Source of the DNA: Bacteroidota bacterium
Lineage (GTDB): Bacteria > Bacteroidota > Bacteroidia > Bacteroidales > JAGNHN01
Length of the DNA stretch: 64,000 bases
Direction: 5' to 3'
Assembly (NCBI GenBank): GCA_022710185.1
Contig: JAKLHK010000015.1
Coordinates: 1-64,000 of the forward strand
A model generated the notes under the pieces. The model saw only the letters and a program-made list of their open reading frames with translations. It searched no databases and was not told the DNA's origin. The position numbers and the translations under genes are program-made. Numbering within the stretch: position 1 is the stretch's first letter; every line of letters starts with the position of its first letter. Shown here piece by piece: positions 14,645-35,765 of this stretch.

Positions 14645-17600
14645 ATGAAGATCAAACCGAGACTGTTCATCCCGCTCCTGCTGAGCCTGAGTATTGCCTG
14701 GCCCGTTCTTTCGCAGGCAGACAAGGTGCTGATAAACAAGGATAAAGATGGTTTTTCCCTTAAGGTAGGGGTAGAAAGGTTCATGATCAATGGCATGAAC
14801 TGGGACTATTTCCCCATCGGAACGACCTATACCTATAGTTTATGGACACAAGCCGATGAGGTGGTCAAAGAAGCCCTGGACAAGGAGATGGCCCTGCTTA
14901 AGGAAATGGGTGTCAATGCGATACGCGTATATACAGGCATTCCACCCCGCTGGATCGAGTATATCCATTCCCGCTATGGCATATATACCATGCTCAACCA
15001 TTCCTTCGGGCGCTATGGCCTCAATGTAGGCGGTGTATGGAAACCGAACACGGAGTATTCTGATCCTCAGGTTCGTGAACTCCTGATCAAAGAAGCGGAG
15101 GAAATGGCGCGGACCTATAAGGGCACTCCCGGACTGCTGTTGTTCCTGCTGGGGAACGAAAACAACTACGGGTTGTTCTGGGACGGGGCCGAAACCGAGG
15201 ATATCCCGATGGAGGACCGTAAATCTACCCTCAGGGCCAAGCCCATGTATCAGCTGTTTAATGATGCGGCATTGAAAATCAAGGGTATAGATGATCAACA
15301 CCCCGTGGCCCTTTGCAACGGTGACCTCCTGTTCCTCGACATCATTGCCCAGGAGTGCAAGGACGTGGACATCCTCGGTGTCAATTCCTACCGCGGTATC
15401 TCCTTCACCGATCTTTACGCCAGGGTCAGCAAGGAATGCAGCAAACCGGTAATGCTGACGGAATTCGGCGCCGATGCCTTCAACGCCCTCACTTTCGAGG
15501 AGGACCAGGCTTCCCAGGCCAGCTACCTCCTGGGCAACTGGAAGGAAATCTATGCCCATGCCGCCGGGATGGGAGGCCTTGGGAATTCTATCGGGGGCTT
15601 CACCTTCCAGTTCAGCGATGGATGGTGGAAACACGGACAGACCTCGGACCTGGACATCCAGGACCACCACGCCTCCTGGTCCAACGGAGGATACCTGCAT
15701 GATTATGTGGAAGGGGAGAACAATATGAACGAGGAGTGGTTCGGCATCTGTGCCAAGGGACCCTCCAACGCCAAAGGCATCTATTCGCTCTATCCCCGCA
15801 CGGCCTATTACGTCCTCAAGGAGGTTCACCGATACCATCCCTACGCCCAGGGTGCCGGACAGGAGACCTTGAACCAGCATTTCGGGGGCATAGGGCTGGT
15901 TAATGCTGCCCTTATGGCCCGGAGCGACAAGGCAGCCCTGGAGACGGAGGGCCTGAAGAAGATCAGGCTCAGCAGGGTGAGCATGGAGCTTAGTACATTC
16001 AATACCGGAGGCAGCCTCATATCTACCCCCGAAAAGGCAGATCCCGATAATCCTGTTTACCCCGACCAGCTGGGATTCGACCATATGCAGTCGTTCTATT
16101 TCGGGGTGGAGGCCAATCCCGCGCCCAACGTCAGTGCGAATGCCGAGTTCAACGTACTGGGAAATGTGGCAACCAACCCCATCGACCAGATCTTCTTCGA
16201 AAACCGGGGACGACCGCTCACCTTCAGCAGTCCTTCAGGCCCACAGGAAGTGGAGTCTATCAACAGGATGCAGGTATACCGGGCCAGTTACCGCTGGGAG
16301 CACCGCTATTTCGATCTGGACGGGTTCTACCGTACCGGCCATTATCATTGGGGCTATGAGGGGGATTTCTTCGGGCTGTATCCTGAAGCCTATTACGGTC
16401 CGCAGATTGACATCTACAATGCCTCGGCACCTTTTGGTTTCGAGATGGAAGGGAAGAAGCAGTTCAAGGGCCTCAAGGCGGCCTTTGGCCCCCAGCTCTG
16501 GTGGGGAGCCAATCCCGCCTTGCTGCTCAAATATACCCGTGAACTGGGTAAGATGACGGTGACCGGAATATTTCACGAAGACATTGATCAGCAGGAGAAT
16601 ACAGAGAGTTCCTTCGCCATTCCCCAGCCGCAGACCCGCCGCCTCACCCTGCACCTGAACCGGGAATTCGGCAAGCTGGACATTGACCTCGGAGGCATAT
16701 GGGCCGGCAGGCCCCTGAACGGGAGGGAGTTCCAGCTCATCAGGGGGGAGACCGGGAGTTATACCGTATATAAAGACAAGATCAGTTCCTCGGACAACTG
16801 GGGTGGCAAGATCAAGCTGACCTACACCGGAGGCAGGGTCAACGCCTATGCGCAGTCGGCCGTGATGGGCCTGGTGGCCAACGGCGGTGCCGACCATACC
16901 AGGACCTTTACCGGATGGCGGCTCAAGGACAGCGGCAGCGGCAACCAATATAATTTCCTCAGCGGATTTACCTACACCCGGGGGAACCTGCAGGTTGCAC
17001 CTAACTTCCTCTGGCAGAAACCCATCGAGGGGCCTATCCCCGGTGATGTGGACGCCCCGGGCAGGCCCCGCAACATCCTCCAGGATCCTTTTGTGGTGAG
17101 GGCCAACCGGGAACAGGTATCGGGCGAGATCCTGATCACCTACGACCCTACCCCGGCCACCTGGATGTACGAATGGGACAGCGACCGTTCTGAGGATGCC
17201 GAGTTCGCACTCAGCGCCGGCTTTGTATTCCGTCATATGCCCACCACCCAGGATGCCGCCATCGGTATCCTTCCCGACGGGCGCACCACCTTCGCCTTCC
17301 CCGGGGCTACCCCTGCCGCCGACCTTTGGGAAGCCTATGTCAGAATGATATCCAAATCCAGCGGGGATTTTGGGTATATCGCGAACCTCTACGCCGGGGA
17401 TGCCCAGGCCAACGGCAGCGACGAGCGTATTATCCGGCGCTATGGCATTGACCTGAGGATGATGTACAGGGACCTGCGGATCAACTCCTTCTTGAGGGTG
17501 AACGATTGGGGCCCCTATGACTATCACCGTGATTACAACCTCACCTTCCCGCTGCAATGTATGGCCGATGTTTCGCTGGCCGTTGGAAAACCCGAGTGGA

Positions 17601-17791
17601 TTGACCTTCCCGGGACCCGGATTGGCATACGGGGTACATGGAGGTCGCTCGATAAGTACTCCCCCCGCTATATGCCCGCCCAGAAGCTCGACAATAGCGG
17701 CAACCTGGTGCCTGACCCGGATGCCGTGGGCTTCGATAATGGCCAGGAGTGGGAGATCAGGACCTATGTGCTCATTCATATCAGTAAATAA
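14645..17791 (+). CDS. Glycosidase (clan-A TIM barrel) fused to a C-terminal outer-membrane beta-barrel
   Basis: A 1048-residue exported protein. The signal peptide is about residues 1-24. Residues 30-400 form a GH2-like (alpha/beta)8 catalytic domain with the clan-A signatures GNENNYG (acid/base candidate Glu172, after Asn171) and LTEFGAD (nucleophile candidate Glu273). From about 440 to the end the sequence changes to long runs of alternating residues, aromatic girdles and Asp/Asn/Gly loops, ending EIRTYVLIHISK, as in an outer-membrane beta-barrel. So the enzyme looks anchored in the outer membrane by its own barrel. It is the first gene of the operon, 12 bases before the next. Substrate (beta-1,3-glucan) is inferred from neighbours; the exact GH family is unresolved. 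Confidence 0.75.
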   Translation: MKIKPRLFIPLLLSLSIAWPVLSQADKVLINKDKDGFSLKVGVERFMINGMNWDYFPIGTTYTYSLWTQADEVVKEALDKEMALLKEMGVNAIRVYTGIPPRWIEYIHSRYGIYTMLNHSFGRYGLNVGGVWKPNTEYSDPQVRELLIKEAEEMARTYKGTPGLLLFLLGNENNYGLFWDGAETEDIPMEDRKSTLRAKPMYQLFNDAALKIKGIDDQHPVALCNGDLLFLDIIAQECKDVDILGVNSYRGISFTDLYARVSKECSKPVMLTEFGADAFNALTFEEDQASQASYLLGNWKEIYAHAAGMGGLGNSIGGFTFQFSDGWWKHGQTSDLDIQDHHASWSNGGYLHDYVEGENNMNEEWFGICAKGPSNAKGIYSLYPRTAYYVLKEVHRYHPYAQGAGQETLNQHFGGIGLVNAALMARSDKAALETEGLKKIRLSRVSMELSTFNTGGSLISTPEKADPDNPVYPDQLGFDHMQSFYFGVEANPAPNVSANAEFNVLGNVATNPIDQIFFENRGRPLTFSSPSGPQEVESINRMQVYRASYRWEHRYFDLDGFYRTGHYHWGYEGDFFGLYPEAYYGPQIDIYNASAPFGFEMEGKKQFKGLKAAFGPQLWWGANPALLLKYTRELGKMTVTGIFHEDIDQQENTESSFAIPQPQTRRLTLHLNREFGKLDIDLGGIWAGRPLNGREFQLIRGETGSYTVYKDKISSSDNWGGKIKLTYTGGRVNAYAQSAVMGLVANGGADHTRTFTGWRLKDSGSGNQYNFLSGFTYTRGNLQVAPNFLWQKPIEGPIPGDVDAPGRPRNILQDPFVVRANREQVSGEILITYDPTPATWMYEWDSDRSEDAEFALSAGFVFRHMPTTQDAAIGILPDGRTTFAFPGATPAADLWEAYVRMISKSSGDFGYIANLYAGDAQANGSDERIIRRYGIDLRMMYRDLRINSFLRVNDWGPYDYHRDYNLTFPLQCMADVSLAVGKPEWIDLPGTRIGIRGTWRSLDKYSPRYMPAQKLDNSGNLVPDPDAVGFDNGQEWEIRTYVLIHISK

Positions 17792-17803: not shown

Positions 17804-19678
17804 ATGAAAACGAACCATCTGCTTATCATATCAAGGTCCGTTGCCCTGGTATGTGCCCTGGCCTTTGTGGCCGGCTGCGAAAGGGATATCGAAGGACTGG
17901 AGCCTGCTACATATTCTACTGACCCCGAGGTGTTTATAGATGATTTTAGTGCGGGGCTCAACTATGCTGCTTTCGGAGGCTCTGTACCTACGGCCTTCGA
18001 TGTGGACAAGGAAGTCACCTACAACGGATCCAAAGCGTCCATCCGCTTCGAGGTCCCCGATTTCGAGGATCCCCGGGGAGCCTATGCCGGTGGGGTGTTC
18101 TTTACCAGCGTGGGCAGGGATCTCACAGGATACAATGCCCTGACATTCTGGGCCAAAGCTTCGCAGGCAGCCACCATCGATCAGATTGGCTTCGGCAACG
18201 ATTTCGGCGAGTTGAAATACCTGGTAGCCGTTTCCGGATTGAAGCTGAATGCGAGCTGGAAGAAATACATCATCCCCATCCCCGATCCCTCCCGGTTGAC
18301 CCAGGAGCGCGGCATGCTCTTCTGTTCCGAAGGTCCGGAAGACGGCCTGGGCTATACTTTCTGGATTGATGAGGTGAAGTTCGAAAAGCTCGGCACCCTG
18401 GCACATCCACAGGCAGCCATCCTGAACGGGGAAGACCGGGAGGTGACCGTGGAGAATGGTCAGGTTATCAACATCAGCGAACGGGAGTTCATCGTCAACC
18501 TCCCTGACGGCACCAATTTCAGCGCGGGCATCTCTCCCAGTTACCTCACTTTCATTTCCTCCAACCCTGCAGTGGCCAGCGTGGCCCCTGACGGAACGGT
18601 GAATGTGCTCAGTGCCGGGACCGCGACCATAACAGCACAGCTGGCAGGCCAGCCAGCGAAGGGTTCCCTCGCCATCACCTGCCTGGGCGAGCCCAACCTC
18701 CCCGCTACGGCGGCTCCGGTGCCCACCTTCGACCCCTCCAAGGTGATCTCCCTATACAGCAATGCCTACGACAATGTGCCGGTGGACACCTGGAACACCC
18801 ATTGGCTGTATTCTACTGCTGAGGAATTCTTTATCAAAATCAATGGGGACGACGTGATCCGCTACCGCAACCTCAATTTCGTCGGCATAGAGTTCACCTC
18901 CGAGATGATCGATGCCACGGCCATGACCCATTTCTACCTTAACCTCTGGACCCCGGATCCTACGGCCCTGCCGAAGACTTTCAAGGTAATGCTGGTAGAC
19001 TTCGGGGCGGATGGCGCCTATGGCGGGGGGGACGATAAATCGCACGAGATCGCCGTCACCAGCCCCACCCTGGTCACCGAAAACTGGATCACCCTGAACA
19101 TCCCCCTGAGCAGCTTCACCGGGCTGACCAATCGTAACCACCTGGCCCAGCTGGTGCTTTCAGGGGACCTTCCCAATGTATATATCGACAACGTACTCTT
19201 CTACACCAGCGGTACGGTGGTCACTGCCCCCACCACCCCGGCCCCGACGCCCACCTACCCCCCGGCCGATGTTATCTCCATCTTCAGTGATACCTACACC
19301 AATGTGCCCGGCACCAACCTCAACCCGGGCTGGGGGCAGGCTACCGTTGTTTCCCAGCTCCCCATCGGCGGAAACAATACCATGAAATACGCCGGCCTGA
19401 ACTATCAGGGCATTGAACTGGGAAGTGCATTGAATGTTTCATCGATGGTCTACTTCCATCTCGATTTCTGGACGGCTAACTCCACCAGTCTCAAGGTGTT
19501 CCTCATCAGCCCCGGTCCGGTGGAAACCCCCTACACCCTTACGGTGCCCACCACGGGCTGGTCATCGATAGACATCCCTCTTACCTCTTTCGCCCCGGTC
19601 GACCTGAGCAATGTGTTCCAGCTCAAGTTCGAAGGGAACGGGGATATCTATCTGGATAATCTGTACTTCCGCAAATAG
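17804..19678 (+). CDS. Modular glycan-binding lipoprotein
   Basis: A 624-residue lipoprotein: hydrophobic signal followed by lipobox FVAGC (Cys25). Domains in order: a jelly-roll, carbohydrate-binding-like module (about 43-200, ending in FWIDEVKFEKLG); a BIG2/Ig-like domain (about 215-292, with YLTFISSNPAVASVAPDGTVNVLSAGTATITA); then two copies of a roughly 155-165-residue repeat starting VISLYSNAYDNVPVDTW and VISIFSDTYTNVPGTN and ending in IDN/LDN-x2-F/Y. The same repeat occurs twice in the last protein of this operon. No catalytic motif is seen. A surface glycan-binding role, like SusE/F or SGBP proteins, is inferred. Confidence 0.75.
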   Translation: MKTNHLLIISRSVALVCALAFVAGCERDIEGLEPATYSTDPEVFIDDFSAGLNYAAFGGSVPTAFDVDKEVTYNGSKASIRFEVPDFEDPRGAYAGGVFFTSVGRDLTGYNALTFWAKASQAATIDQIGFGNDFGELKYLVAVSGLKLNASWKKYIIPIPDPSRLTQERGMLFCSEGPEDGLGYTFWIDEVKFEKLGTLAHPQAAILNGEDREVTVENGQVINISEREFIVNLPDGTNFSAGISPSYLTFISSNPAVASVAPDGTVNVLSAGTATITAQLAGQPAKGSLAITCLGEPNLPATAAPVPTFDPSKVISLYSNAYDNVPVDTWNTHWLYSTAEEFFIKINGDDVIRYRNLNFVGIEFTSEMIDATAMTHFYLNLWTPDPTALPKTFKVMLVDFGADGAYGGGDDKSHEIAVTSPTLVTENWITLNIPLSSFTGLTNRNHLAQLVLSGDLPNVYIDNVLFYTSGTVVTAPTTPAPTPTYPPADVISIFSDTYTNVPGTNLNPGWGQATVVSQLPIGGNNTMKYAGLNYQGIELGSALNVSSMVYFHLDFWTANSTSLKVFLISPGPVETPYTLTVPTTGWSSIDIPLTSFAPVDLSNVFQLKFEGNGDIYLDNLYFRK

Positions 19679-19692: not shown

Positions 19693-20526
19693 ATGAGAAT
19701 CAAGAACATAGTTCAGGCATTATTTTTCCTCCCTGTCGTCATCCCCGCCCTGAGCGGATGCACCCCCGATGAGTACCAAAAGCTCGACGAACGGAACTGG
19801 GAGCTGGTATGGAGCGATGAGTTCGACGGGGATGCGGGAGTTCTTCCCGATTCCTCGAAATGGGCCTTCGACCAGGGAACAGGCCAGGGTGGCTGGGGCA
19901 ACCAGGAGCTGCAATACTATACCAACCGGCCCGAGAATGTTTCCCTCGACGGGGAAGGCCACCTGGTGATTACTGCGATCAGGGAGAGCTTCGGCGGTGC
20001 CAGCTTCAGCTCGGCCCGTGTGAAGACCCAGGGCATCTTTGAACAGGCCTACGGACGTTTCGAGGCCCGGATCATCACCCCTTACGGGCCCGGGATCTGG
20101 CCGGCCTTCTGGCTGCTCGGGTCCGATGTGGAGACCCTGGGCTGGCCCCAGTGCGGGGAAATCGATATCATGGAGCTGCGCGGCCAGGAACCCGATGTCA
20201 TCCATGGCACCATCCACGGCCCGGGATACTCCGGAGGGAATGGTATCACACGGGAGTATATTCTGGAGGATGGAAGGTATGATGCAGATTTTCATGTCTT
20301 TGCAATGGAGTGGACCGAGGACAGGCTTGATTTCTTCGTGGATGGATACCTCTACCACCGCATCGAACGCGAAGACGTCCCGGGCACCTGGGTGTACGAC
20401 TACCCCTTCTTCATTATCCTGAACGTGGCCGTGGGCGGGAACTATGTGGGCTTCCCTACTTCGCAAACCCCCTTCCCTCAGCAGATGGTGATCGACTATG
20501 TGAGGGTGTACCGCAGCGCAGACTAA
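19693..20526 (+). CDS. GH16 endo-beta-1,3-glucanase (laminarinase-like) lipoprotein
   Basis: A 277-residue lipoprotein with lipobox LSGC (Cys23) and one GH16 domain. The catalytic motif GEIDIMELRG (residues 155-164) supplies nucleophile Glu156 and acid/base Glu161; the extra Met in E-I-D-I-M-E is the beta-bulge form usual in laminarinases. WSDEFDG near residue 40, the IWPAFWLLG strand and HGTIHGPGYSGG agree with the bacterial GH16_3 laminarinase pattern. It would cut internal beta-1,3 (or mixed 1,3/1,4) bonds at the cell surface. It starts 14 bases after the binding lipoprotein. Confidence 0.92.
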   Translation: MRIKNIVQALFFLPVVIPALSGCTPDEYQKLDERNWELVWSDEFDGDAGVLPDSSKWAFDQGTGQGGWGNQELQYYTNRPENVSLDGEGHLVITAIRESFGGASFSSARVKTQGIFEQAYGRFEARIITPYGPGIWPAFWLLGSDVETLGWPQCGEIDIMELRGQEPDVIHGTIHGPGYSGGNGITREYILEDGRYDADFHVFAMEWTEDRLDFFVDGYLYHRIEREDVPGTWVYDYPFFIILNVAVGGNYVGFPTSQTPFPQQMVIDYVRVYRSAD

Positions 20527-20578: not shown

Positions 20579-23500
20579 ATGGATATGATGAGCGATCCCG
20601 GGAACGCATCCCAGGCAAAGGAAGTGCCGCTGGACCTGGTCCGCCGGGGCAATGAACCGTTTTTCAGGATGTCGGGCTACGATAGCCTGCGCCCTTTCTT
20701 TATGAACATCGTGAGTTCTTCCAACCTCTGGGTTTTCGTTTCAAGCAATGGCGGGATCACCGCTGGAAGGATCAGTCCCGACTTTGCTCTGTTTCCCTAT
20801 TATACCGACGACAAAATCACCGAGTCGGCCGAAATTACCGGGAGCAAGACGATCATCCGTATCCCCCGGAGGGAAGAAACCCTGGTATGGGAGCCATTCT
20901 CGGTTCGCTGCAGCAAGAGGTTCAGCATCAGCAGGAATCTCTATAAATGCATGTACGGGAACAAGGTCGTTTTCGAGGAGGTCAACCACAGCCTGGAACT
21001 CTCCTTTGCCTATGAATGGAGCACCAGCCCGGAGTTTGGGATCGTGAAGCGGTCCTGGTTGCGCAACCATTCCTCGCGTCCGGTGCGCGTTTCGCTGCTC
21101 GATGGACTCCAGAACATCCTGCCATTCGGCATCGGCAGCGATATGCAGCAGAGTGTCAGTAACCTGGCCGACGCCTACAAGCGCAGCGAGCTGCATCAGG
21201 CTTCTGGTCTGGGAATATTTGCCCTCAGTGCCATCATCGTCGACAAGGCCGAACCCAGCGAAGCGCTCAAGGCCAACGTGGTCTGGAGCACCGGGGTGGA
21301 AAATGCCGTCCGCCTGCTGTCAACGCTGCAGCTCGATCAGTTCAGGAATGGCCACAACCTTCAGGAGGAAACCGACATCAAGGGAGAGAAAGCCGCCTAT
21401 TTCATCGGGGCTGGCCTTCAGTTGGAGCCTGGACAGGAAAAGGACTGGAGGATAGTGTCCGATGTGGCAAAAGACCATGCCCAGGTCATCCACCTCATCC
21501 GCCAGATAGAAGCAGGAAACAGCGCGGGTTGTGTTGTTCAGGACGATGTGGACAGGGGTACCCTGGAGCTGCTCAGGCTGGTGGCCGGTGCCGATGGATT
21601 GCAGTTCACCTCCGATGTACTCCAGGATTCCCGTCATTATTCCAACGTCCTTTTCAATATTCTTAGGGGCGGGATTTTTGATCAGGATTACCGGATCGAC
21701 CGTAAGGATTTCCTGGCTTATCTGAAGAAGGCCAGCCATGTGGCTTATGAAACGGGAAAGGCCCGGCTGGACAGCCTGGGTGATTATTTCAGCAGGGAAG
21801 AACTCTGCCGCCTGACCGATACTTTCGGGAACCCGAACCTCATCCGGCTCTCCAGGGGCTACCTTCCGCTGAGGTTCAGTCGCCGGCATGGGGACCCCAG
21901 CCGCCCCTGGAACAGGTTCAGCATCAATATTCTTCGCGAAGACGATGGGGCCAGGGTGCTCGACTACGAGGGGAATTGGAGGGATATCTTCCAGAACTGG
22001 GAAGCCCTGGCCTGGGCCTATCCTGATTTTGTGGAGGGCATGGTCTTCAAGTTCCTCAACACCACCACCTTCGAAGGATACAATCCCTACCGCCTAACCA
22101 AGGACGGCTATGACTGGGAGACTATAGAGCCACATAATCCCTGGTCCTACATCGGCTATTGGGGCGATCATCAGCTGATCTATCTGCTTAAACTGATGGA
22201 AATTATGGATCGCGTCGAGCCCGGGGCCTTCGAAAGCCTCTGGCAGCGGGAGTGCTTTGTCTATGCGGATGTGCCCTACCGGATCAGATCCTATGAAGAG
22301 ATACTGAAGGACCCCCGGAATACCATCGATTTCGACCATGAAGCCGATCGCTTCCTCCGCAGGGAAAGGGAAATGCACGGAGCCGACGGGACCTTGCTGC
22401 GCAATCTTCAGGGGGAGGTCCATCATGTGAACCTGATGGAGAAGCTGCTCGCTACCCTTCTTTCCAAGGTAAGCAATTTCATTCCTGAAGGGGGCATATG
22501 GATGAACACCCAGCGCCCGGAATGGAACGACGCAAACAACGCCCTGGTAGGCCATGGGGTATCCGTGGTAACCCTGGGCTATATGCGGCGCTTCGTGGCC
22601 TTCTTTGAACATGCGGTCGCCCGGGCCGGCTTCGGCGAAGTCCTGCTTTCCGCCGAGCTGCATGCCCTGTTCCAGGCCATCGCCGGTGCGCTGCAACGCC
22701 ACCTGCCGGAGCTAAGGGGCAGGATGAGCGACGAGGAGCGCCGGGCCATTGTGGATGAACTGGGTGCCAGCGGAAGCCAATACAGGCAGCGCATTTACTC
22801 CCAGGGCTTCAGCAACCAGAGGGCAGGGATTGACCGTGCCATGCTCGCGGCATTCCTTGAGACACTCAGAAGATATATCGATCATTCCCTGAAGGCCAAC
22901 AAGCGTCCCGATGGGATGTATCACACCTATAACATCTTAAACATCAGCGAGAAGGCCATGGGCATCGCCCCGTTGGGGATCATGCTCGAAGGCCAGGTGT
23001 CGGCCATCAGCAGTGGCTGTCTCAGTCCTGAAGAAGTCCTCAGTCTGCTCAACGCCATGCGGAGCAGCCCGCTCTACCGCCACGACCAGAACACCTATCT
23101 CCTCTATCCCAACAAGGATCTTCCGGGCTTCCTCGCCAGGAACCGGATACCGGAAGCCCTGGCGCAAGGCTCTGCCCTGATCCAGGCGCTCCTTCAGGCG
23201 GGGGATAGGTCCGTTGTGGCCCCGGACATGGACGGACTGCTGCATTTCAACGGTAATTTCCGGAATGTCAGCGACCTTAGGGTTGCGTTGGAGCGACTGA
23301 AGACCACCGACCTCGGGGGGCTGGCGGAAAAGGAGAGCGAGCTCCTGCAGGGGATTTTCGAAAGGGTATTCGACCACAAGTCCTTCACCGGCAGGTCCGG
23401 CACCTTTTTCGCCTACGAAGGCCTGGGTTCAGTATACTGGCATATGGTCTCGAAGCTCCATCTGGCCGTACAGGAGGCCTGTCTGAACGCGGCACGTGAA

Positions 23501-24064
23501 GCCAGGGAAGAGGGTGCCCATGCGGAAAGCCTGGTAGGATTGCGGGCGCAGTACTACGCCATCGGGGAGGGGATAGGGATACATAAACCGCCTGAGGTTT
23601 ATGGCGCCTTCCCCACGGATCCATATTCCCATACCCCCCTGCACAAAGGGGCCCAGCAGCCGGGGATGACCGGCCAGGTCAAGGAAGACATCCTAACACG
23701 CATAGGCGAACTTGGAATAGATATCAGGGATGGCCGGCTGTGCATCGATCCCCTGCTGCTGCGCAGGGAAGAGTTCATCGCCGAGGCCAGGGAGGTGGAA
23801 ATGATCGGAGTGGGAGGGGAAGCCAGGATGTTGCAACTGGAAGCCGACAGCCTGTGTTTCCATTTCGCTCAGGTCCCCGTGATCTTCTCCCTCGCTCAGT
23901 CGGGCGGGAGGCAGATCGAGCTCAGCTATTATGATGGACGTAAGGAACGCGCGGATTCCTGTTGCCTGAGCAGGGAACAAAGCCGGAAAATATTCGGCAG
24001 GACAGGGGAGATAGCGCTGATCAGGGTGTGGATCGATCCTAAAGATCTTGTATATGAGAAATAG
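20579..24064 (+). CDS. GH149-type beta-1,3-oligoglucan phosphorylase
   Basis: An 1161-residue cytosolic protein (no signal peptide) related to GH94 phosphorylases but of the length and pattern of GH149, which phosphorolyse beta-1,3-gluco-oligosaccharides to glucose 1-phosphate. It has an N-terminal beta-sandwich region (about 1-330) and a large (alpha/alpha)6 domain. Motifs include NPWSYIGYWGDHQ (about 520-531) and RPEWNDANNALVG (646-658), whose Asp651 is the likely general acid. The neighbourhood (GH16, GH30, GH17, sugar symporter) is what the reaction predicts. Two further ATGs at 20585 and 20588 are possible starts. GH161 is the main alternative, but the length fits GH149 better. Confidence 0.85.
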   Translation: MDMMSDPGNASQAKEVPLDLVRRGNEPFFRMSGYDSLRPFFMNIVSSSNLWVFVSSNGGITAGRISPDFALFPYYTDDKITESAEITGSKTIIRIPRREETLVWEPFSVRCSKRFSISRNLYKCMYGNKVVFEEVNHSLELSFAYEWSTSPEFGIVKRSWLRNHSSRPVRVSLLDGLQNILPFGIGSDMQQSVSNLADAYKRSELHQASGLGIFALSAIIVDKAEPSEALKANVVWSTGVENAVRLLSTLQLDQFRNGHNLQEETDIKGEKAAYFIGAGLQLEPGQEKDWRIVSDVAKDHAQVIHLIRQIEAGNSAGCVVQDDVDRGTLELLRLVAGADGLQFTSDVLQDSRHYSNVLFNILRGGIFDQDYRIDRKDFLAYLKKASHVAYETGKARLDSLGDYFSREELCRLTDTFGNPNLIRLSRGYLPLRFSRRHGDPSRPWNRFSINILREDDGARVLDYEGNWRDIFQNWEALAWAYPDFVEGMVFKFLNTTTFEGYNPYRLTKDGYDWETIEPHNPWSYIGYWGDHQLIYLLKLMEIMDRVEPGAFESLWQRECFVYADVPYRIRSYEEILKDPRNTIDFDHEADRFLRREREMHGADGTLLRNLQGEVHHVNLMEKLLATLLSKVSNFIPEGGIWMNTQRPEWNDANNALVGHGVSVVTLGYMRRFVAFFEHAVARAGFGEVLLSAELHALFQAIAGALQRHLPELRGRMSDEERRAIVDELGASGSQYRQRIYSQGFSNQRAGIDRAMLAAFLETLRRYIDHSLKANKRPDGMYHTYNILNISEKAMGIAPLGIMLEGQVSAISSGCLSPEEVLSLLNAMRSSPLYRHDQNTYLLYPNKDLPGFLARNRIPEALAQGSALIQALLQAGDRSVVAPDMDGLLHFNGNFRNVSDLRVALERLKTTDLGGLAEKESELLQGIFERVFDHKSFTGRSGTFFAYEGLGSVYWHMVSKLHLAVQEACLNAAREAREEGAHAESLVGLRAQYYAIGEGIGIHKPPEVYGAFPTDPYSHTPLHKGAQQPGMTGQVKEDILTRIGELGIDIRDGRLCIDPLLLRREEFIAEAREVEMIGVGGEARMLQLEADSLCFHFAQVPVIFSLAQSGGRQIELSYYDGRKERADSCCLSREQSRKIFGRTGEIALIRVWIDPKDLVYEK

Positions 24065-25607
24065 ACCGGACACCCCTCGCCGGCGCAATACATCCCTGTT
24101 GATGTGCGCGCTGGCCCTTGGTAATATCATGGCAATGATGGGATTGAACAGCTGCACATCGGATAGTGTGAACCTGAACGCTGAAGTCTACGAAACCTCC
24201 GCTTCGGGCAACCAGCTCAGCAGGATCACGGAGTATACTGCTTCGGAGAAATACGTGGATATCCATATCGATACATCCGAGAAGTACCAGGAAATCACGG
24301 GCTTCGGCGGGGCCTTCACAGAGTCCTCAGCCTACCTGCTGAACCGTTTGGGGGCGACCAACCGGGCCAGGGTGCTGGAAGCCTATTTCGGGGAAAGCGG
24401 CGCCAGGTATTCCCTCACCCGCACCCACATCGGCTCCTGCGATTTTTCCCTGGGCAACTACACCTACGCCCCGGTAGCCGGTGACCGGGACCTGCTCCAC
24501 TTCAGCATTGCGGAGGACGAGGAGGACATCATCCCTATGATCCGCGATGCGCAGCAGCTGAGCAAGGATGGTTTCAGGATAGTGGCTGCCCCATGGACCG
24601 CCCCGCCCTGGATGAAGGACAACAAGGATTGGGTGGGAGGGAAGCTCCTGCCGGAGTATTATGAAACCTATGCCCTCTTCATCCACAAATACCTGATGGC
24701 CTATAAGGAAAAAGGCATTCCAATCTGGGGAATAACTGCGGTAAATGAGCCCCTTGGCAACGGCAACAACTGGGAAAGCATGCATTTCACCCCCACTGAA
24801 ATGAACGACCTGGTGTCACGTTTCCTCGGACCCTTGCTGCGTTCGAAAGCCCCGGAAGTGAAGATCCTGGGTTATGACCAGAACCGGGAAGACGGGATGC
24901 GCGACTGGGTGGATGCCATGTATGCCGATGAGGCCATAGCCTCCTGGTATGATGGCATGGCCATTCACTGGTATGCCGGTACCGTTGATTATTTTCCCGG
25001 GATGCTGCTATATGCCCACAACAAGGTCCCTGGCAAGCACCTGATCCAGACCGAGGCCTGTGTGGATGCCGAAGTGCCACACTGGAAGGATGACACCTGG
25101 TATTGGTCGGAGGAGGCCACCGACTGGGGATACGACTGGGCTCCGGAGGAGCTGAAGTATCGCCATCCCAAATATGTTCCGGCTTTCCGCTATGCCCGCG
25201 ATATTATCGGATGCCTGAACCATGGGGTGGATGGCTGGATCGACTGGAATATGGTGCTGGACCGTCAGGGGGGGCCAAACTGGGCCTCCAACTGGTGTGT
25301 GGCCCCGGTGATCGCAGACCCTCAGGGGGACCAGGTGTATTTCACCCCCCTGTACTACATCATGGCGCAGTTCAGCCGCTACATCCGGCCCGGGGCGGTA
25401 AGGATAGGCCATGTTTTTGATGATCAGGACCTTATGATTACCGCAGCCCGCAATCCCGACGGGAGTGTAGCCGTGGTGGTGTTCAATCCAGAGGATAAGG
25501 AAAAGGGGATACGCCTGGGGATGGGCGGAAAGACATTCACATTCTCCATCAGCGCAAAAGCATTGTCCACAGTGCTTATTCCCGCCCAGGGAACTGTAAG
25601 GTTATAG
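24054..25607 (+). CDS. GH30 beta-glucanase/beta-glucosidase lipoprotein
   Basis: A 517-residue GH30 enzyme. An N-terminal basic segment and hydrophobic stretch lead to lipobox LNSC (Cys34). The GH30 signature GFGGAFTESSAYLL follows, with acid/base Glu232 in TAVNEP and nucleophile Glu334 in LIQTEACV; a C-terminal beta-domain (about 430-517) closes the protein. In laminarin loci GH30 members usually cut beta-1,6 branches or act as glucosylceramidase-like beta-glucosidases; the subfamily is not settled here. The ATG at 24054 overlaps the phosphorylase stop by 11 bases, so translation is probably coupled. An in-frame TTG at 24048 is less likely. Confidence 0.9.
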   Translation: MRNRPDTPRRRNTSLLMCALALGNIMAMMGLNSCTSDSVNLNAEVYETSASGNQLSRITEYTASEKYVDIHIDTSEKYQEITGFGGAFTESSAYLLNRLGATNRARVLEAYFGESGARYSLTRTHIGSCDFSLGNYTYAPVAGDRDLLHFSIAEDEEDIIPMIRDAQQLSKDGFRIVAAPWTAPPWMKDNKDWVGGKLLPEYYETYALFIHKYLMAYKEKGIPIWGITAVNEPLGNGNNWESMHFTPTEMNDLVSRFLGPLLRSKAPEVKILGYDQNREDGMRDWVDAMYADEAIASWYDGMAIHWYAGTVDYFPGMLLYAHNKVPGKHLIQTEACVDAEVPHWKDDTWYWSEEATDWGYDWAPEELKYRHPKYVPAFRYARDIIGCLNHGVDGWIDWNMVLDRQGGPNWASNWCVAPVIADPQGDQVYFTPLYYIMAQFSRYIRPGAVRIGHVFDDQDLMITAARNPDGSVAVVVFNPEDKEKGIRLGMGGKTFTFSISAKALSTVLIPAQGTVRL

Positions 25608-25631: not shown

Positions 25632-27062
25632 ATGGCAAAATATTCAACAGCAGCGAAGGACAGGGTGCCTGTAATCCAGAAGGCGGCCTTTGGCGCAGGC
25701 CACCTGGTCAATAATCTTCTGCCCGGTTCCCTGGGCGTGTTTTCCTTCTTCCTGCTCACCGCCTTCGGAATGGACCCCTTCCTGGCAGGACTGCTTGGAG
25801 GGCTTCCCAGAATCTGGGATGCGATCACTGACCCCATAATGGGATATATCTCCGACAATACCCAGTCGCGCTGGGGGAGGCGCAAACCTTACATTTTTGT
25901 GGGGGCCATCATGAGCGGCGTCCTTTTCGCCGTGCTTTGGCAACTTTACCCCGACAACGGTCAGACCTACAATTTCTGGTACTTCCTCATTTTCTCCCTG
26001 ATATACCTGGTGGGCAACACCATTTTCTCTACCCCCCTCATTGGCCTGGGTTATGAGATGACCTTCGATTACAACGAGCGTACCCGCTTGATGGGCTTCT
26101 CCCAGACCATCGGGCAGCTGGCCTGGATGATCGTGCCGTGGTTCTGGGTGATCATCGCCAATCCTGACCTCTTCGAAACCCAGGCACACGGGGTGCGTGG
26201 ACTCTCCATTATCGTGGGTGGCGCCTGTATAGTGCTGGGGATGATGCCGGCCATCTTCTGCAAGGAAGTAGATCAGTCCAATCTCACCAACCGGGATAAG
26301 ATCACCATCAGTAGTCTGTGGTCCAACCTGAAGTCCTTGTACCACAATATGGTCAAGATCTCAAAGAACAAGCCATTTGTTAAACTCTGTGGAGCTACAT
26401 TTCTGGTATTCAATGGATTTCAGATGGTGGCCTCCTTCAGTTACTTCATTATTGTATTCTACCTTTTCAATGGGGCGTATGACCTGGCCGGTACCTGGCC
26501 GGCCTGGTTCTCCACCGTGAGTGCGCTGGTCACCGCCTTCCTTATCATCCCGGTGATTACCCGGCTTTCCAACAGGTTTGGAAAGAGAAGGGCCTTCATC
26601 ATCTCCACCCTGATCTCCATCGTAGGCTATGCCCTGAAATGGTGGGGATTCAACCCCGAGAACCCCTGGATGATGTTCATGCCCATTCCCTTCCTGGTCT
26701 TTGGCATCGGGGGGCTGTTCACCCTGATGATGAGCATGACGGCGGACGTATGCGACCTGGATGAGCTGGAGAACGGGATGCCCCGCAAGGAGGGGACCTT
26801 TGGGGCGATATACTGGTGGATGGTGAAGCTGGGACAGGGCCTTGCCCTGGTGCTCGGTGGTCTGGTACTCAAGCTGGTAGGCTTTGATCAGAATTCCGCG
26901 GTGCAAACGGCGGAGACCATTACCCGGCTGCGGCTGGCAGACATTACCATACCCGCCATTACTGCGGCCCTCGCCATCTGGATCATGTGGAAATATGATC
27001 TGACCGAGGACCGCGCCCGTGAGATCAAGGATGAATTGGTGAAGAGAAGGGGAGAGCTCTGA
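25632..27062 (+). CDS. GPH-family (MelB-like) sugar:cation symporter
   Basis: A 476-residue MFS protein with about 12 membrane helices. Features of the glycoside-pentoside-hexuronide:cation symporters are the ITDPIMGYISDNTQSRWGRRKPYI loop (Asp-rich helix 2 and following loop, residues 56-80), the GLGYEMTFDYNERTRLMG segment (about 139-156) and the DLDELENGMPRKEGTFGA loop near residue 373. It would carry glucan oligosaccharides or glucose across the inner membrane with H+ or Na+. It lies between the periplasmic/surface enzymes and the two cytosolic GH17s, 24 bases after GH30, matching an import role. Confidence 0.9.
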   Translation: MAKYSTAAKDRVPVIQKAAFGAGHLVNNLLPGSLGVFSFFLLTAFGMDPFLAGLLGGLPRIWDAITDPIMGYISDNTQSRWGRRKPYIFVGAIMSGVLFAVLWQLYPDNGQTYNFWYFLIFSLIYLVGNTIFSTPLIGLGYEMTFDYNERTRLMGFSQTIGQLAWMIVPWFWVIIANPDLFETQAHGVRGLSIIVGGACIVLGMMPAIFCKEVDQSNLTNRDKITISSLWSNLKSLYHNMVKISKNKPFVKLCGATFLVFNGFQMVASFSYFIIVFYLFNGAYDLAGTWPAWFSTVSALVTAFLIIPVITRLSNRFGKRRAFIISTLISIVGYALKWWGFNPENPWMMFMPIPFLVFGIGGLFTLMMSMTADVCDLDELENGMPRKEGTFGAIYWWMVKLGQGLALVLGGLVLKLVGFDQNSAVQTAETITRLRLADITIPAITAALAIWIMWKYDLTEDRAREIKDELVKRRGEL

Positions 27063-27112: not shown

Positions 27113-28033
27113 ATGTCATACAGATCTGAAAGGTTCCTGCGCTACCATGGGGAAAGCGTTCCCTCACTTCCCTATCCCATCGACGACCGTTCTCCCGTGG
27201 AACTAAGGGATTTGTTCCTGGAGATATTGCACAACAAGGTCCACGGGTTTTGCTTCAGCATGTACGAAGAGGGTCAGCAGCCCGGCGATCTCATCCCAGA
27301 GGCCCAGGTCAGGAGGCGGCTACAGCTGCTGCAGCGGCATGCACATTGGATAAGGTCCTTCTCCTGCATCGAAGGCAATGAGAATGTGCCGAAGGTCGCC
27401 AGGGAACTGGGAATGAACACCCTGGTGGGTGCCTGGCTGGGGAAGGACAAGGAGAAGAACCGGCAGGAGATCAAGGCCCTGATCGACCTCGCCCGCCAGG
27501 GATATGTGGATATCGCCGCAGTGGGCAACGAGGTGCTCTACCGCAAGGACCTGTCGGAGGACGAACTGCTTCAGTACATCGATACCGTGAAGCAGGCCAT
27601 TCCGGAGGTCCAGGTGGGTTATGTGGACGCATACTACGAGTTCGTGCAGCGCCCCAGCATCGCCGCGGCCTGCGATGTGATCCTCACCAACTGCTACCCT
27701 TTTTGGGAAGGGACAAGCTTTGAGACTTCCCTTGATCATATGAAACAGATGTATGGACAGGCCAGGGAGGCCGGCGGAGGGAAGCGCGTGATCATTACGG
27801 AAACAGGCTGGCCAAGTCGGGGCGCAAGCCTCGGCATTGCCCTGCCTTCAGCCAGGAATGCCCTGCTCTATTTCATCAATACCCAGCTATGGTCCATGGA
27901 CGAGAATATCGAGGTTTTCTATTTCTCCTCCTTCGACGAGTCCTGGAAAACGGGTGCCGAAGGTGAAGTCGGGGCCTTTTGGGGAGTATGGGATATCCAC
28001 GGAAATCTGAAATATACCGGTGAACAGCTTTAA
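27113..28033 (+). CDS. GH17 beta-1,3-glucan hydrolase/transglycosylase-type enzyme, cytosolic
   Basis: A 306-residue GH17-family (alpha/beta)8 protein. Acid/base Glu140 is in AAVGNEVLY and nucleophile Glu230 in IITETGWPS, both canonical for GH17. The start MSYRSERF is polar and there is no signal peptide or lipobox, so it probably works in the cytosol on imported oligosaccharides. It overlaps the next GH17 gene by 14 bases. Activity could be exo-hydrolysis or transglycosylation of beta-1,3-gluco-oligosaccharides; sequence alone does not decide. Confidence 0.88.
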   Translation: MSYRSERFLRYHGESVPSLPYPIDDRSPVELRDLFLEILHNKVHGFCFSMYEEGQQPGDLIPEAQVRRRLQLLQRHAHWIRSFSCIEGNENVPKVARELGMNTLVGAWLGKDKEKNRQEIKALIDLARQGYVDIAAVGNEVLYRKDLSEDELLQYIDTVKQAIPEVQVGYVDAYYEFVQRPSIAAACDVILTNCYPFWEGTSFETSLDHMKQMYGQAREAGGGKRVIITETGWPSRGASLGIALPSARNALLYFINTQLWSMDENIEVFYFSSFDESWKTGAEGEVGAFWGVWDIHGNLKYTGEQL

Positions 28034-28976
28034 TGCATTGGGGATAAATGCCGGAAGGGCAATCTGCTATTCCGGCTTCCGCGAAGGCCAGCAGCCGGGA
28101 GGAAAGTATCCTTCCTATGCGGAGGTAAGGGAAGATCTCATGCTGTTGCACGGGCATTGGAAATACCTGCGGCTGTTCGATACCGATCGGCATGCCGAAA
28201 CGGTACTGGAGGTAATACAGCGGGAAAACCTTGATTTCAGGGTAATGCTGGGAGCCTACATAGAGGCCGAAATGAACAACTTCAACTGTCCGTGGAACAG
28301 CGGGGTATACACTGAAGCACAGCTGGAAGCCAACGCGATAAGTAATGAAAGGAAGATCAGTCGTTTGATCGACATGGGGAAGGCCTTCCCGGGGATCGTC
28401 TTTGCACTATCCGCGGGTAATGAGGCCCTGGTCGGCTGGACAGACCACTATGTGCCGGAGTCCCGGGTAATGGAGTTTGTGCGAAAGATCAAGGAACAGG
28501 CACCTCAGCCCGTGACCTTCTGCGAAAACTACAGTCCGTGGCTCGACCAGTTGAAGCACCTGCCGGAAGAAGTGGACTTCATTTCCATACACACCTACCC
28601 GGTTTGGGAATACAAGCACATCGATGAAGCAATCGCGTATACGCGGGATAACTATAATTCGGTGGTTTCCAGGCATCCCGGTAAAAATGTGGTGATTACC
28701 GAGGCGGGCTGGGCTACCAACTCCAACGGCAGGGGTATCGACCCGGGCAAGGTGAACGAGGAGTACCAGAAAGCCTATTATGAAATGCTTATGGAGTGGT
28801 CGGAGCGGGAGAACATCCTGACTTTCTTTTTCGAAGCCTTCGATGAACGCTGGAAGGGTTCCCCTGAACCCCTGGAACCTGAAAAACATTGGGGCCTGTT
28901 CCACACCAACCGTACACCCAAACTGGCCATAAGCGATCACCTCACTGTCCCCAAAAACCCCAGGCAAGGGGTATGA
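28020..28976 (+). CDS. Second GH17 enzyme, translationally coupled
   Basis: A 318-residue GH17 protein, clearly diverged from its neighbour. Acid/base Glu135 lies in LSAGNEALVG and nucleophile Glu228 in VVITEAGWAT. Compared with the first GH17 it carries a longer insertion after the third strand (about residues 80-105, with EAEMNNFNCPWNSG). The likely start is a GTG at 28020, inside the 3' end of the preceding gene (14-base overlap). No signal peptide is present. The pair suggests a tandem duplication followed by specialisation; both are expected to act with the phosphorylase on imported oligosaccharides. Confidence 0.87.
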   Translation: MNSFNALGINAGRAICYSGFREGQQPGGKYPSYAEVREDLMLLHGHWKYLRLFDTDRHAETVLEVIQRENLDFRVMLGAYIEAEMNNFNCPWNSGVYTEAQLEANAISNERKISRLIDMGKAFPGIVFALSAGNEALVGWTDHYVPESRVMEFVRKIKEQAPQPVTFCENYSPWLDQLKHLPEEVDFISIHTYPVWEYKHIDEAIAYTRDNYNSVVSRHPGKNVVITEAGWATNSNGRGIDPGKVNEEYQKAYYEMLMEWSERENILTFFFEAFDERWKGSPEPLEPEKHWGLFHTNRTPKLAISDHLTVPKNPRQGV

Positions 28977-29014: not shown

Positions 29015-30853
29015 ATGAAGAAGTACTACGTGGTTTTAATGTTGCTTTCGGCCTCATTGAGCTTTGCTCAGAATGCGCCGATCAATTTCGAGACAGGAGG
29101 ATATGGAGCATCCTGGACCTGGACTGTTTTTGAGAACTTCACCAACCCTCCGCTCGAAATCGTCGCGAATCCCAGTGCAACCGGGATCAATACCTCCGCT
29201 ACCGTGGCCAAATTCACGGCCCTGCAGGCCGGCAATCCCTGGGCTGGTTGCGAATCATTGCACGGTACCACCAACCTGGGATCCTTTGTACTGGACACCA
29301 GTAATTCGATCATCAAGATCATGGTATGGAAGCCCGTGATCAGCGATGTGGGGATCAAGCTTGTGGCGAACTCGGGCTGGGCGATGGCAGAGATCAAGGT
29401 AGCCAATACCCTGATCAACCAGTGGGAAGAACTCACCTTCGACTTCTCCGCTTACCCCAACCCTCCGGCCATCGAAGGTCCTTATGATCAGATTGTTATT
29501 TTTCCTGATTTTAATCTGAGCGGAAGAACCCAGAACAACATCTGCTATTTCGACAACATCACCTTCAATCCCCAGGCAGCCAGTCTGAACTGGCCTGCAG
29601 CCCCCGCACCCACGCCCACCCATCCGGCCGCCAGCGTGATCTCGATGTTCAGCAATGCCTATACCAATGTCCCGGTCGACACCTGGCTCACCACCTGGTC
29701 CGCAGCCGTACTCACCGATACCAGCGTGGCAGGAAATGCGGTTAAGCGTTATTCCCAGCTCAATTTCGCAGGCATCGAGACCGCCTTGAACCAACTGGAC
29801 GTTTCGGGGATGACCCATCTGCACCTTGATGTCTGGTCCGCTGATTTCACCTTCTTCGGAATCAAGCTCGTCGATTTCGGTGCCAACGGAGCCTATGGGG
29901 GAGGCGACGATGTGGAGCACCAGCTCAACTTCACGGCGCCTGCCCAGGGTCAGTGGGTCAGTTACAACATCCCCCTGAGCGATTTCACAGGCCTTACTAC
30001 CAAACAGCACCTCGCCCAATACATCCTCGTGGGCCAGCCTACGGGAGTGAATACAGTCTTTATCGATAATTTCTACTTCTATTCTGCCAGCACGGCCACC
30101 TTCCCTCCGGCTGCCGCACCTACCCCCACTTTCCCTGCTTCCGGAGTGATCTCCCTCTATAGCGATGCCTACACCAACGTTCCGGTCGACACCTGGCTCA
30201 CTTCCTGGTCAGCAGCTCAGTTGCAGGATACCAACGTGGCCGGCAATGCCATTAAAAAGTACTCCCAACTGGATTTCGCAGGCATAGAAACCGTGCTGAA
30301 CCAGCTCAATGTGAGCGCGATGACCCACTTGCATATGGATGTATGGTCACCCAACTTCACCTTCTTCGGGATCAAGCTCGTTGACTTCGGAGCCGATGGC
30401 GCCTATGGCGGGGGCGACGACGTAGAGCACCAGGTCAATTTCACCTCGCCTTCACAAGGTCAGTGGGTCAGCTATGATATCCCCCTGACTGATTTTACCG
30501 GCCTCGTAACCAAACAACACCTTGCCCAGTACATCCTGGTAGGCCAGCCCACCGGCCTGAGCACCGTATTTCTGGATAATGTATACTTCTATGACATCGC
30601 TGTCGGCCTGCCTGAGGGCCATGCCGGCATGGATGCAGCGATCAGTGTCTATCCCAACCCCGTGGTTTCCGGACAGCCTGTGAAGATCGGGGGACCGGTC
30701 AGGTCCTCTGAAGTATTGGATATGACCGGACGGATCCTTTGGACCGGCTCCACTTCCTCCATCCCCACTGAAGGGCTGGAAAGGGGAATGTACCTGGTTC
30801 GGGTGCTCAGCCCCGACCAGCGGGTATCCACAGTTAAACTGAGGGTGGACTAA
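29015..30853 (+). CDS. T9SS-exported protein with tandem glycan-binding-like repeats
   Basis: A 612-residue secreted protein. Signal peptide about 1-18 (VVLMLLSASLSFA). An N-terminal jelly-roll-like domain (about 22-190) is followed by two very similar 170-residue repeats (VISMFSNAYTNVPVDTW from about 208; VISLYSDAYTNVPVDTW from about 378), each with LVDFGA[ND]GAYGGGDDVEHQ and ending in a FIDN/FLDN-type strand. A type IX secretion type-A sorting domain follows (ISVYPNPVVSGQPV ... GMYLVRVLSPDQRVSTVKLRVD). No catalytic residues are recognised. The repeats match the lipoprotein second in the operon, so a laminarin-binding or cell-surface role is inferred. A terminator follows 17 bases downstream. 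Confidence 0.82.
   Translation: MKKYYVVLMLLSASLSFAQNAPINFETGGYGASWTWTVFENFTNPPLEIVANPSATGINTSATVAKFTALQAGNPWAGCESLHGTTNLGSFVLDTSNSIIKIMVWKPVISDVGIKLVANSGWAMAEIKVANTLINQWEELTFDFSAYPNPPAIEGPYDQIVIFPDFNLSGRTQNNICYFDNITFNPQAASLNWPAAPAPTPTHPAASVISMFSNAYTNVPVDTWLTTWSAAVLTDTSVAGNAVKRYSQLNFAGIETALNQLDVSGMTHLHLDVWSADFTFFGIKLVDFGANGAYGGGDDVEHQLNFTAPAQGQWVSYNIPLSDFTGLTTKQHLAQYILVGQPTGVNTVFIDNFYFYSASTATFPPAAAPTPTFPASGVISLYSDAYTNVPVDTWLTSWSAAQLQDTNVAGNAIKKYSQLDFAGIETVLNQLNVSAMTHLHMDVWSPNFTFFGIKLVDFGADGAYGGGDDVEHQVNFTSPSQGQWVSYDIPLTDFTGLVTKQHLAQYILVGQPTGLSTVFLDNVYFYDIAVGLPEGHAGMDAAISVYPNPVVSGQPVKIGGPVRSSEVLDMTGRILWTGSTSSIPTEGLERGMYLVRVLSPDQRVSTVKLRVD
29606..30600 (+). repeat. Tandem duplication of a 510-base coding module
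   Basis: Two copies of about 490-510 bases lie head-to-tail inside the T9SS-exported protein, offset by exactly 510 bases at the VIS[ML] codons (29636 and 30146). Long stretches are near-identical at the DNA level, for example around the codons for GAYGGGDDVEH and HLAQYILVGQPTG, indicating a recent duplication or gene conversion. Confidence 0.8.
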
Positions 30854-34319: not shown

Positions 34320-35765
34320 ATGAAAAACGCACTCATCATCGGGGCGGGAGTATCCGGTTTGGCCACGGCCATACGCCTGGCGGCAGCCGGATGGGCCGTG
34401 GAGGTGCATGAGGCCGCGGAAGGCCCCGGCGGCAAGATGGGAAGCCTGGAGCAGGACGGCTTCCGCTGGGATACCGGGCCTTCGTTGTTCACCTGGCCGG
34501 CCCTGGCTGAAGAGCTCTTCCATAGTGCGGGGAGATCCCTGTCCGAATACATCCCCCTGCGCCGTCTCTCCCTGATCACCCGTTACCGTTTCGCCGACGG
34601 CACCCTGGTGGATGCCCCGTCCGAAGCGGAGGCCTTCGCCACCGCGCTGGAGCGCCAGTGTGGGGAGCCTGTGCGCAATACCCTGAACTACCTTGACGAC
34701 TGCCGCCGGCTGTTCGAGCTCACCCGGCCCGTCTTCCTCGAACATCCGCCGGGCATAGGCCGTATATTCTCAAAGGATTACCTGCAAGCTTACCCCCACC
34801 TGTACCGCCTCAGGGCATGGACCAGCCTCCACCGCCACCATGCCCGGGTGTTCCACACCCCCCAGGCAATGCAGCTCTTCGATCGCTATGCCACATACAG
34901 CGGTTCCAACCCCTATTCCGCGCCGGCCACACTCAGAGTGATCGCCCATCTGGAGCACAACGAAGGGGCATACTTCCCTGAACAGGGGATGTATGGCTTC
35001 GCCCGGGGCCTTTATCGCCTGGGCCAGGAGCTGGGAGTGAGCTATCACTTCAATAGCCGCGCACTGCGCCTGGTGGAACGCTCGGGGCGCATCGCCGGGG
35101 TGGAAACTACCCGGGGGTACCGGGAAGCCGGGGTGGTGGTGTCGTCTGCCGACGTGAGCGGCCCGGAAGGCTTCAGCCGTAAAGACCCCCTGCCCCCGGA
35201 ACGGCTCTCTTCCTCGGCCATCATCTTCTTCCTTGGGCTGAACAAGAGCTACCCCGGACTGGACCTGCACAATATGTTTTTTTCCGCCGATTACCAGAAC
35301 GAGTTCAGGCAGATGTTCAGTGAACTCAATCTGGCTCCCGACATGAGCATTTATGTGTTTGTCAGCAGCAAGCTGGTGCCCTCCGATGCCCCCCCCGGCC
35401 ATGAGAACTGGTTCGTCATGGTAAATGCACCCCCCGATGCAGGCCAGGACTGGGGACGTCTGGCCGCGGAAAGCCGGGAGCGTATCCTCGATAAGCTGGA
35501 GCAGTCGCTGGGTCAACCGATAAGGCCCCATATCGTAAGTGAAGCCCGCCTTCTTCCTACCGACCTGGCCACCACTAGCGGGGCATGGCGTGGGGCGCTT
35601 TACGGGCCGAACGGCAACAGGGCCATGTCGGCGTTCCACCGTCACCCCGTTCAGGGGCGCCGGAAGAACCTGTTCCATACCGGGGGTTCGGTACACCCCG
35701 GGGGCGGCATCCCCCTTTGCCTGCTCTCCGCACGCATTGCCACCGCTAAGATCCTTTCGCTATGA
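34320..35765 (+). CDS. Carotenoid desaturase, CrtD/CrtI family
   Basis: A 481-residue FAD-dependent carotenoid desaturase. N-terminal FAD motif LIIGAGVSGLATAIRLAAAG; the PGGKMGSLEQDGFRWDTGPSLFTWP block and C-terminal FHTGGSVHPGGGIPLCLLSA are family signatures. The middle QLFDRYATYSGSNPYSAPATL is closer to CrtD-type 1-hydroxycarotenoid 3,4-desaturases than to phytoene desaturase CrtI in my reading, which fits the hydratase next door. First gene of a seven-gene run with very short or overlapping junctions; it overlaps the next by four bases (ATGA). Phytoene synthase (crtB) is absent from the window. Confidence 0.82.
   Translation: MKNALIIGAGVSGLATAIRLAAAGWAVEVHEAAEGPGGKMGSLEQDGFRWDTGPSLFTWPALAEELFHSAGRSLSEYIPLRRLSLITRYRFADGTLVDAPSEAEAFATALERQCGEPVRNTLNYLDDCRRLFELTRPVFLEHPPGIGRIFSKDYLQAYPHLYRLRAWTSLHRHHARVFHTPQAMQLFDRYATYSGSNPYSAPATLRVIAHLEHNEGAYFPEQGMYGFARGLYRLGQELGVSYHFNSRALRLVERSGRIAGVETTRGYREAGVVVSSADVSGPEGFSRKDPLPPERLSSSAIIFFLGLNKSYPGLDLHNMFFSADYQNEFRQMFSELNLAPDMSIYVFVSSKLVPSDAPPGHENWFVMVNAPPDAGQDWGRLAAESRERILDKLEQSLGQPIRPHIVSEARLLPTDLATTSGAWRGALYGPNGNRAMSAFHRHPVQGRRKNLFHTGGSVHPGGGIPLCLLSARIATAKILSL

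Follow-up and report, generated by a model that had tools for sequence, protein, structure and literature searches.

A glycosidase fused to a predicted plugless outer-membrane barrel in beta-1,3-glucan gene clusters of Bacteroidota: a candidate single-chain glycan importer

Results

The window analysed here is a stretch of 64,000 nucleotides from a member of the Bacteroidales (contig JAKLHK010000015.1). On its forward strand, positions 14645-17791 form a single uninterrupted open frame of 1048 codons. As judged from this frame and from its homologues, the gene encodes a 1048-residue protein that joins a glycosidase to an outer-membrane barrel, referred to below as the fusion. The next gene (17804-19678, +) encodes a carbohydrate-binding lipoprotein with CBM11-like and Big_2 matches in Pfam and a lipobox (VAGC, followed by ERDIE). 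Further along the same strand lie a GH16 endo-beta-glucanase, assigned by its Pfam match and predicted from its lipobox to be a lipoprotein (LSGC; 19693-20526, +), and a GH149 beta-1,3-glucan phosphorylase with a 1580-bit match and no visible signal (20579-24064, +). By their domain profiles, the following two genes encode a GH30 enzyme matching, below the cut-off, the model of BT3312-type endo-1,6-beta-glucanases (24048-25607, +), and a GPH-type sugar symporter (MFS_2; 25632-27062, +). Pfam also identifies a GH17 enzyme in which no signal was seen (27113-28033, +), a second, GH17-like enzyme scoring below the cut-off (26.6 versus 28.2 bits; 28020-28976, +), and a CBM11-like protein with a T9SS sorting tail, likewise below Pfam cut-offs (29015-30853, +). 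Finally, a regulator with a LuxR-type helix-turn-helix, just below the Pfam cut-off, is encoded at 30941-33643 (+). In our survey of neighbours, 31 of 52 loci have a homologue of this regulator close to the fusion.

A previous reading of the DNA from its letters alone (the sequence-only reading) had regarded the locus as laminarin-type. This agrees well with our annotation, in which GH16, GH149, GH30, GH17 and the sugar symporter make up a beta-1,3-glucan cluster. The gene following the fusion is a homologue of the carbohydrate-binding lipoprotein in all 79 named loci. Among the loci with both flanks available (n = 52), GH16 is present in 52, GH149 in 46 and SusC/D in 2. Moreover, GH149 was found in 28/28 fusion genomes; conversely, 28 of the 51 genomes with GH149 carry an intact fusion, and none of the 245 genomes without GH149 does. 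Elsewhere in the window, positions 34320-40821 hold a carotenoid cluster (an amine-oxidase-type desaturase, a carotenoid synthesis protein, a glycosyltransferase and a lycopene cyclase), and a BamA/Omp85-like protein with several POTRA repeats is encoded on the reverse strand (44784-47402, -).

The fusion starts with a signal sequence (residues 1-23; 14645-14713, +) that is of Sec/SPI type by eye and has no lipobox. It is followed by a TIM-barrel catalytic domain resembling GH158 (residues about 28-400; 14726-15844, +), and here the frame, Pfam, a sequence profile, the structural model and fold comparison all support the clan-A glycosidase of the sequence-only reading. The sole Pfam domain of the fusion is GH2_C, at residues 75-284 (22.2 bits, cut-off 21). 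The sugar-binding and Ig-like domains that stand upstream of the TIM barrel in the GH2 layout were not found; the TIM barrel begins near residue 28. When clan-A families were compared through their structures, GH158 was nearest. A profile built from 27 TIM halves retrieved GH158 beta-1,3-glucanase structures first (E 1.9e-6 and 3.7e-5), and the TIM half superimposes on the GH158 fold with a Z of 27.2 (rmsd 3.0, 292 residues; best Foldseek E 1.2e-13), the GH157 and GH2 folds being about one Z unit or less away.

The two glutamates pointed out in the sequence-only reading are correctly placed: Glu172 in GNENNYG is the predicted acid/base (15158-15160, +), and Glu273 in LTEFGAD the predicted nucleophile (15461-15463, +). 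Both are invariant in two alignments, of 23 and 53 homologues. N171-E172 and E273, which show no variation, align with the GNE and TEWG/TEFG motifs of GH158 structures; in BuGH158, the catalytic residues are N136, E137 and E220 (PMC7157763). The fusion thus shares with the GH158 enzymes (BuGH158, PDB 6PAL; GH158(Pro), PDB 9ORO) a clan-A TIM barrel, the NE and TE(F/W)G motifs, and a beta-1,3-glucan context. However, identity over the fold is about 20%, the signal peptide of BuGH158 is of type II, and an outer-membrane barrel occupies the place of the C-terminal Ig-like domain of BuGH158. No Ig-like C-terminal domain is present in the AlphaFold2 model, where helices at residues 386-437 lead into barrel strands. 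Altogether, sequence comparison indicates that the enzyme half is a clan-A TIM-barrel glycosidase of predicted activity, nearest to the GH158 beta-1,3-glucanases.

A linker helix (residues 418-437; 15896-15955, +), evident from the models and from conservation, contains the strongly conserved motif ARSDK (ARGDK in the consensus). Beyond it, residues 441-1046 (15965-17782, +) are predicted from models and structure matches to form a plugless outer-membrane beta-barrel. The AlphaFold2 model of the whole protein reached a pLDDT of 77 and a pTM of only 0.64, with 24 membrane-type strands counted; residues 415-1048 modelled alone from 76 sequences gave a pLDDT of 80, a pTM of 0.77 and again 24 long strands. 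Hence both models have the even strand number that the sequence-only reading had expected of its C-terminal barrel of about 600 residues. With strand positions taken from the model, hydrophobicity alternates along the strands more strongly than in 2000 shuffles (2.45 versus 1.42 +/- 0.21). In a structure search with the barrel model, outer-membrane barrels came out on top (AlgE, the OprD family, the FimD usher and LptD). AlgE is the best fold match by Z (16.5 over 274 residues) and OprD-type porins align over about 270 residues, while the FimD/PapC usher barrels (Z 12-13, 353-373 residues aligned) cover nearly the whole model. The Foldseek matches include BtuB, OprC and the sucrose porin, with some TonB receptors among them. 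A fold of jelly-rolls or beta-sandwiches is ruled out by both models and by these matches. Pfam has no family for the C-terminal half, with no Plug, carboxypeptidase-like, usher or autotransporter match, and a profile of the barrel found nothing meaningful among PDB sequences (best E 1.2). We therefore regard the C-terminal half as a predicted 24-strand plugless outer-membrane barrel, whose closure and lumen size we infer from the structural matches.

Conservation is higher at lumen-facing than at membrane-facing positions of the barrel (0.75 versus 1.35 bits, P 2e-4), a difference that is supportive only, because the side of each residue was assigned by hydrophobicity. The inward-facing positions are polar as well as conserved, and some outer loops are also strongly conserved, including predicted extracellular loop 3 (residues 563-596, beginning RTGHYHWGYEGDFFGLYPEA; 16331-16432, +; conservation 0.93). 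On the predicted periplasmic side, residues 834-854 (17144-17206) form a long, strongly conserved turn, DPTPATWMYEWDSDRSEDAEF. This turn and the ARGDK motif of the linker helix could touch the enzyme domain or shut the pore.

Loop lengths are informative about the orientation of the protein. The 12 loops after odd strands have a mean length of 23 residues, and the 11 turns after even strands, mostly of two residues, a mean of 5 (P 1.6e-4). An even number of strands, combined with short turns on the side where the barrel begins, places both barrel ends in the periplasm. Since the enzyme precedes the first strand, it should be periplasmic too, probably at the inner mouth of the pore. This argues against the surface enzyme of the sequence-only reading. 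That arrangement, with the enzyme outside the cell and the barrel serving as anchor and entry pore, would require the chain to be threaded through or beside the barrel as in EstA, with linker helix 418-437 in the lumen. Like EstA-type autotransporters, the fusion carries an N-terminal enzyme and a C-terminal outer-membrane barrel in one chain, and the conserved helix ahead of the first strand would suit such a threading. In addition, the free-standing related enzymes are lipoproteins and possibly surface-located in Bacteroidota. However, the classical autotransporter barrel, which exports its passenger, has 12 strands, far from the 24 that are predicted here over about 600 residues, with lumen and loops conserved. 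Pfam gives no autotransporter family match, and the loop-length topology keeps the N-terminus periplasmic. Thus, we consider a surface enzyme unlikely and favour the periplasmic location.

The full-length fusion is present in 28 of 296 sampled genomes of the phylum, at about 57-67% identity. When 84,980 species genomes were scanned with two peptide patterns of the enzyme half, at least 584 relatives were found. The best 80 were retained, and all 79 of these that do not run into a contig end are full length, although this way of selecting favours full-length copies. These 79 intact homologues rule out a false fusion or a frameshift; the two-domain layout is the same in all of them, and the split into separate genes that could have undone the sequence-only reading was not seen. 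A barrel without the enzyme was not found in the 296 genomes, where every match of the barrel profile lies in a fusion gene or in one of two broken copies. Hosts of the fusion are Flavobacterium, Cloacibacterium, Epilithonimonas, Algoriphagus, Winogradskyella, Saprospiraceae, Balneolaceae, Kapaibacterium and a Bacteroides finegoldii record, and Flavobacterium, Algoriphagus, Winogradskyella and the B. finegoldii record represent culturable hosts. The latter record (L168; NZ_OY725931.1, 'plasmid 29') carries the fusion, the CBM lipoprotein and GH16, together with rpsA and mazG; this gene content suggests that a piece of chromosome was deposited as a plasmid.

The enzyme occurs alone in four genomes. 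Three of these enzymes (genomes G104, G119 and G123) group inside the fusions, with Balneolaceae, and from this nested position we consider it most likely that they kept the enzyme and lost the barrel. In G119, a broken fusion copy (L162:2025-3464) retains the enzyme and a 55-residue barrel remnant. Genome G235, which has no GH149 match, holds another broken fusion (L163:1271-3225), with internal stops and remnants of both halves. A lipobox is present in the enzymes of G104, G123 and G242, and the lipobox pattern is absent from 77 of the 79 named fusions. In this sense, the lipid anchor and the barrel look like alternatives at the sequence level. Distant relatives, at about 25% identity, are also lipoproteins and are encoded within glucan clusters. 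Two distant TIM-domain proteins with about 26% identity, of which at least one has a lipobox, adjoin GH149 and a sugar transporter (L180:11496-12977 and L181:11606-12949); their genomes belong to a different family, and no SusD lies near these genes.

Glycan passage in Bacteroidota normally uses SusC/SusD, which the fusion had been suggested to replace in this locus. By profile match, the contig of the window encodes neither a plug of a TonB-dependent transporter nor SusD, and the partner lipoprotein has no SusD match either; none of the 23 plug-domain matches of the genome is on this contig. In the whole genome (assembly 92% complete) two SusD loci were detected, both on other contigs, one being a starch-like system and the other standing beside peptidase and PKD genes; neither looks specific for beta-glucan. 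Few of the large proteins left unassigned in the 52 loci have a TonB plug domain, and true SusC proteins in related loci match plug models strongly. SusD was found within 20 kb of the fusion in 3 of the 28 fusion genomes (5-6 kb away), and five have no SusD match at all. Comparable GH149 genomes that lack the fusion served as a control (n = 19), and 18 of them also lack SusD within about 20 kb. Therefore, a missing SusD is by itself no evidence that the fusion transports, and the idea that fusion and SusC/D exclude each other found no support as a contrast. The fusion-less GH149 loci have other gene sets, so they were not counted against a pore role. A gain of SusC/D upon loss of the barrel in G104 and G123 found no support either, as fusion keepers of the same genus (G022 and G112) hold the same SusD elsewhere (79-82% identity). 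Replacement of SusC/D by the fusion is plausible: in its favour stand a locus without the pair and a genome in which no beta-glucan-type SusD locus was detected, and against it the control genomes and the three fusion loci with SusD.

Discussion

In this study, we describe a protein in which a GH158-like enzyme precedes a predicted outer-membrane barrel. With a probability of roughly 55%, we propose that it imports beta-1,3-gluco-oligosaccharides across the outer membrane as a single chain, the import and its substrate being predicted from gene context and structure. The surface GH16 lipoprotein would cut a laminarin-like glucan, and the carbohydrate-binding lipoprotein encoded next door would hold the glucan chains. 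Oligosaccharides would then cross the plugless 24-strand barrel, and the tethered enzyme would cut each chain as it emerges on the periplasmic side. Such cutting would block the return of the chain and keep the gradient inward without TonB. GH30 and GH17 would trim the products further, the symporter would take short sugars into the cytoplasm, and GH149 would phosphorolyse them. Both the order of these steps and the coupling of cleavage to uptake are what we infer from the parts.

An alternative explanation is that the barrel mainly anchors the enzyme at the outer membrane, and that the sugar enters through another porin or a TonB receptor. Generic TonB receptors encoded elsewhere in the genome could indeed carry it, and other GH149 loci do without a nearby SusD and without the fusion. 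Moreover, the barrel-less relatives mostly carry a lipobox, that is, another anchor. On the other hand, a predicted 24-strand barrel whose polar lumen is strongly conserved, and whose outer loops are conserved too, far exceeds the needs of an anchor, and barrel and enzyme stay together in every intact named copy (79/79). We therefore find a mere anchoring role rather improbable. A barrel releasing self-made beta-glucan, with the enzyme trimming or transferring chains, has also been considered. Polymer export with a trimming enzyme is familiar from AlgE with AlgL and from PgaA with PgaB, AlgE is the best fold match by Z, and transglycosylases are known among clan-A enzymes. However, the gene cluster is degradative (GH16, GH30, GH17, the GH149 phosphorylase and the sugar symporter), and no glucan synthase is found among the scanned genes beside the fusion. 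An exporter thus seems very improbable, and import of beta-1,3-gluco-oligosaccharides is the reading that we prefer.

Several known systems resemble the proposed importer in part. Like SusC/SusD importers, it has a large outer-membrane barrel whose partner, encoded in the same polysaccharide locus, is a glycan-binding lipoprotein. Unlike them, it has no plug, a partner that gives no SusD match in Pfam, 24 predicted strands instead of 22, and an enzyme fused in front. The sugar and polymer porins (AlgE, the OprD family, chitoporin and ScrY) are related through fold matches and the conserved polar lumen predicted here, but they have 16-18 strands and no fused hydrolase. The FimD/PapC usher has a 24-strand barrel, the strand number predicted here from two models; in contrast, the fusion has a TIM barrel at its N-terminus and lacks the usher N-terminal, plug and C-terminal domains. 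Laminarin loci also contain the GH17-MFS fusion FbGH17b (PMC6246565, PMC10108472), which likewise unites an enzyme and a sugar transporter of the same pathway in one chain. Nevertheless, FbGH17b belongs to the inner membrane, whereas our fusion is predicted in the outer membrane, and the parts are unrelated. In G119, a protein that joins an MFS symporter and a GH17 domain (L162:8617-10968) resembles the published FbGH17b, and an MFS protein of similar length (781 residues) is encoded in another GH149 locus (L170:14508-16853, G076). An unclassified 'GH0', conceivably the same protein as the fusion, is reported as expressed in laminarin polysaccharide utilization loci (PMC10108472).

The locus fails the strict definition of a polysaccharide utilization locus, as it holds CAZymes without a susC/susD pair. 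It is instead what PMC5827456 and PMC10108472 call a CAZyme cluster. Clusters of this kind that contain GH149 and no susCD have been described (PMC5827456), with the same enzyme set and the SusC/D pair absent, and the sections that we searched in that source make no mention of an outer-membrane barrel in them; the fusion is a candidate for this component. In the open-access literature we found no report of a large outer-membrane barrel joined to a glycosidase, in keeping with the sequence-only reading, which was aware of no characterised protein of this architecture. The parts are of known kinds, their combination is undescribed in the open-access literature searched, and the barrel matches no family model. 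One annotated record names the fusion only 'glycoside hydrolase family 2 TIM barrel-domain containing protein', so the pore half was overlooked there.

Tentatively, and at somewhat less than even odds, the fusion may represent an undescribed class of glycan importer: a TonB-independent outer-membrane pore with its own hydrolase at the inner mouth, in which cutting drives net uptake, paired with a glycan-binding lipoprotein and serving throughout the Bacteroidota for beta-1,3-glucan in clusters without SusC/D. Among the major products of algal photosynthesis is laminarin, for which Bacteroidota are one of the main groups of consumers, and the SusC/D importer is missing from many of their beta-glucan clusters (PMC5827456). 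In this context, the fusion offers a concrete and widely conserved candidate for the outer-membrane crossing in such clusters, and it may constitute an unrecognised route for the uptake of storage sugars.
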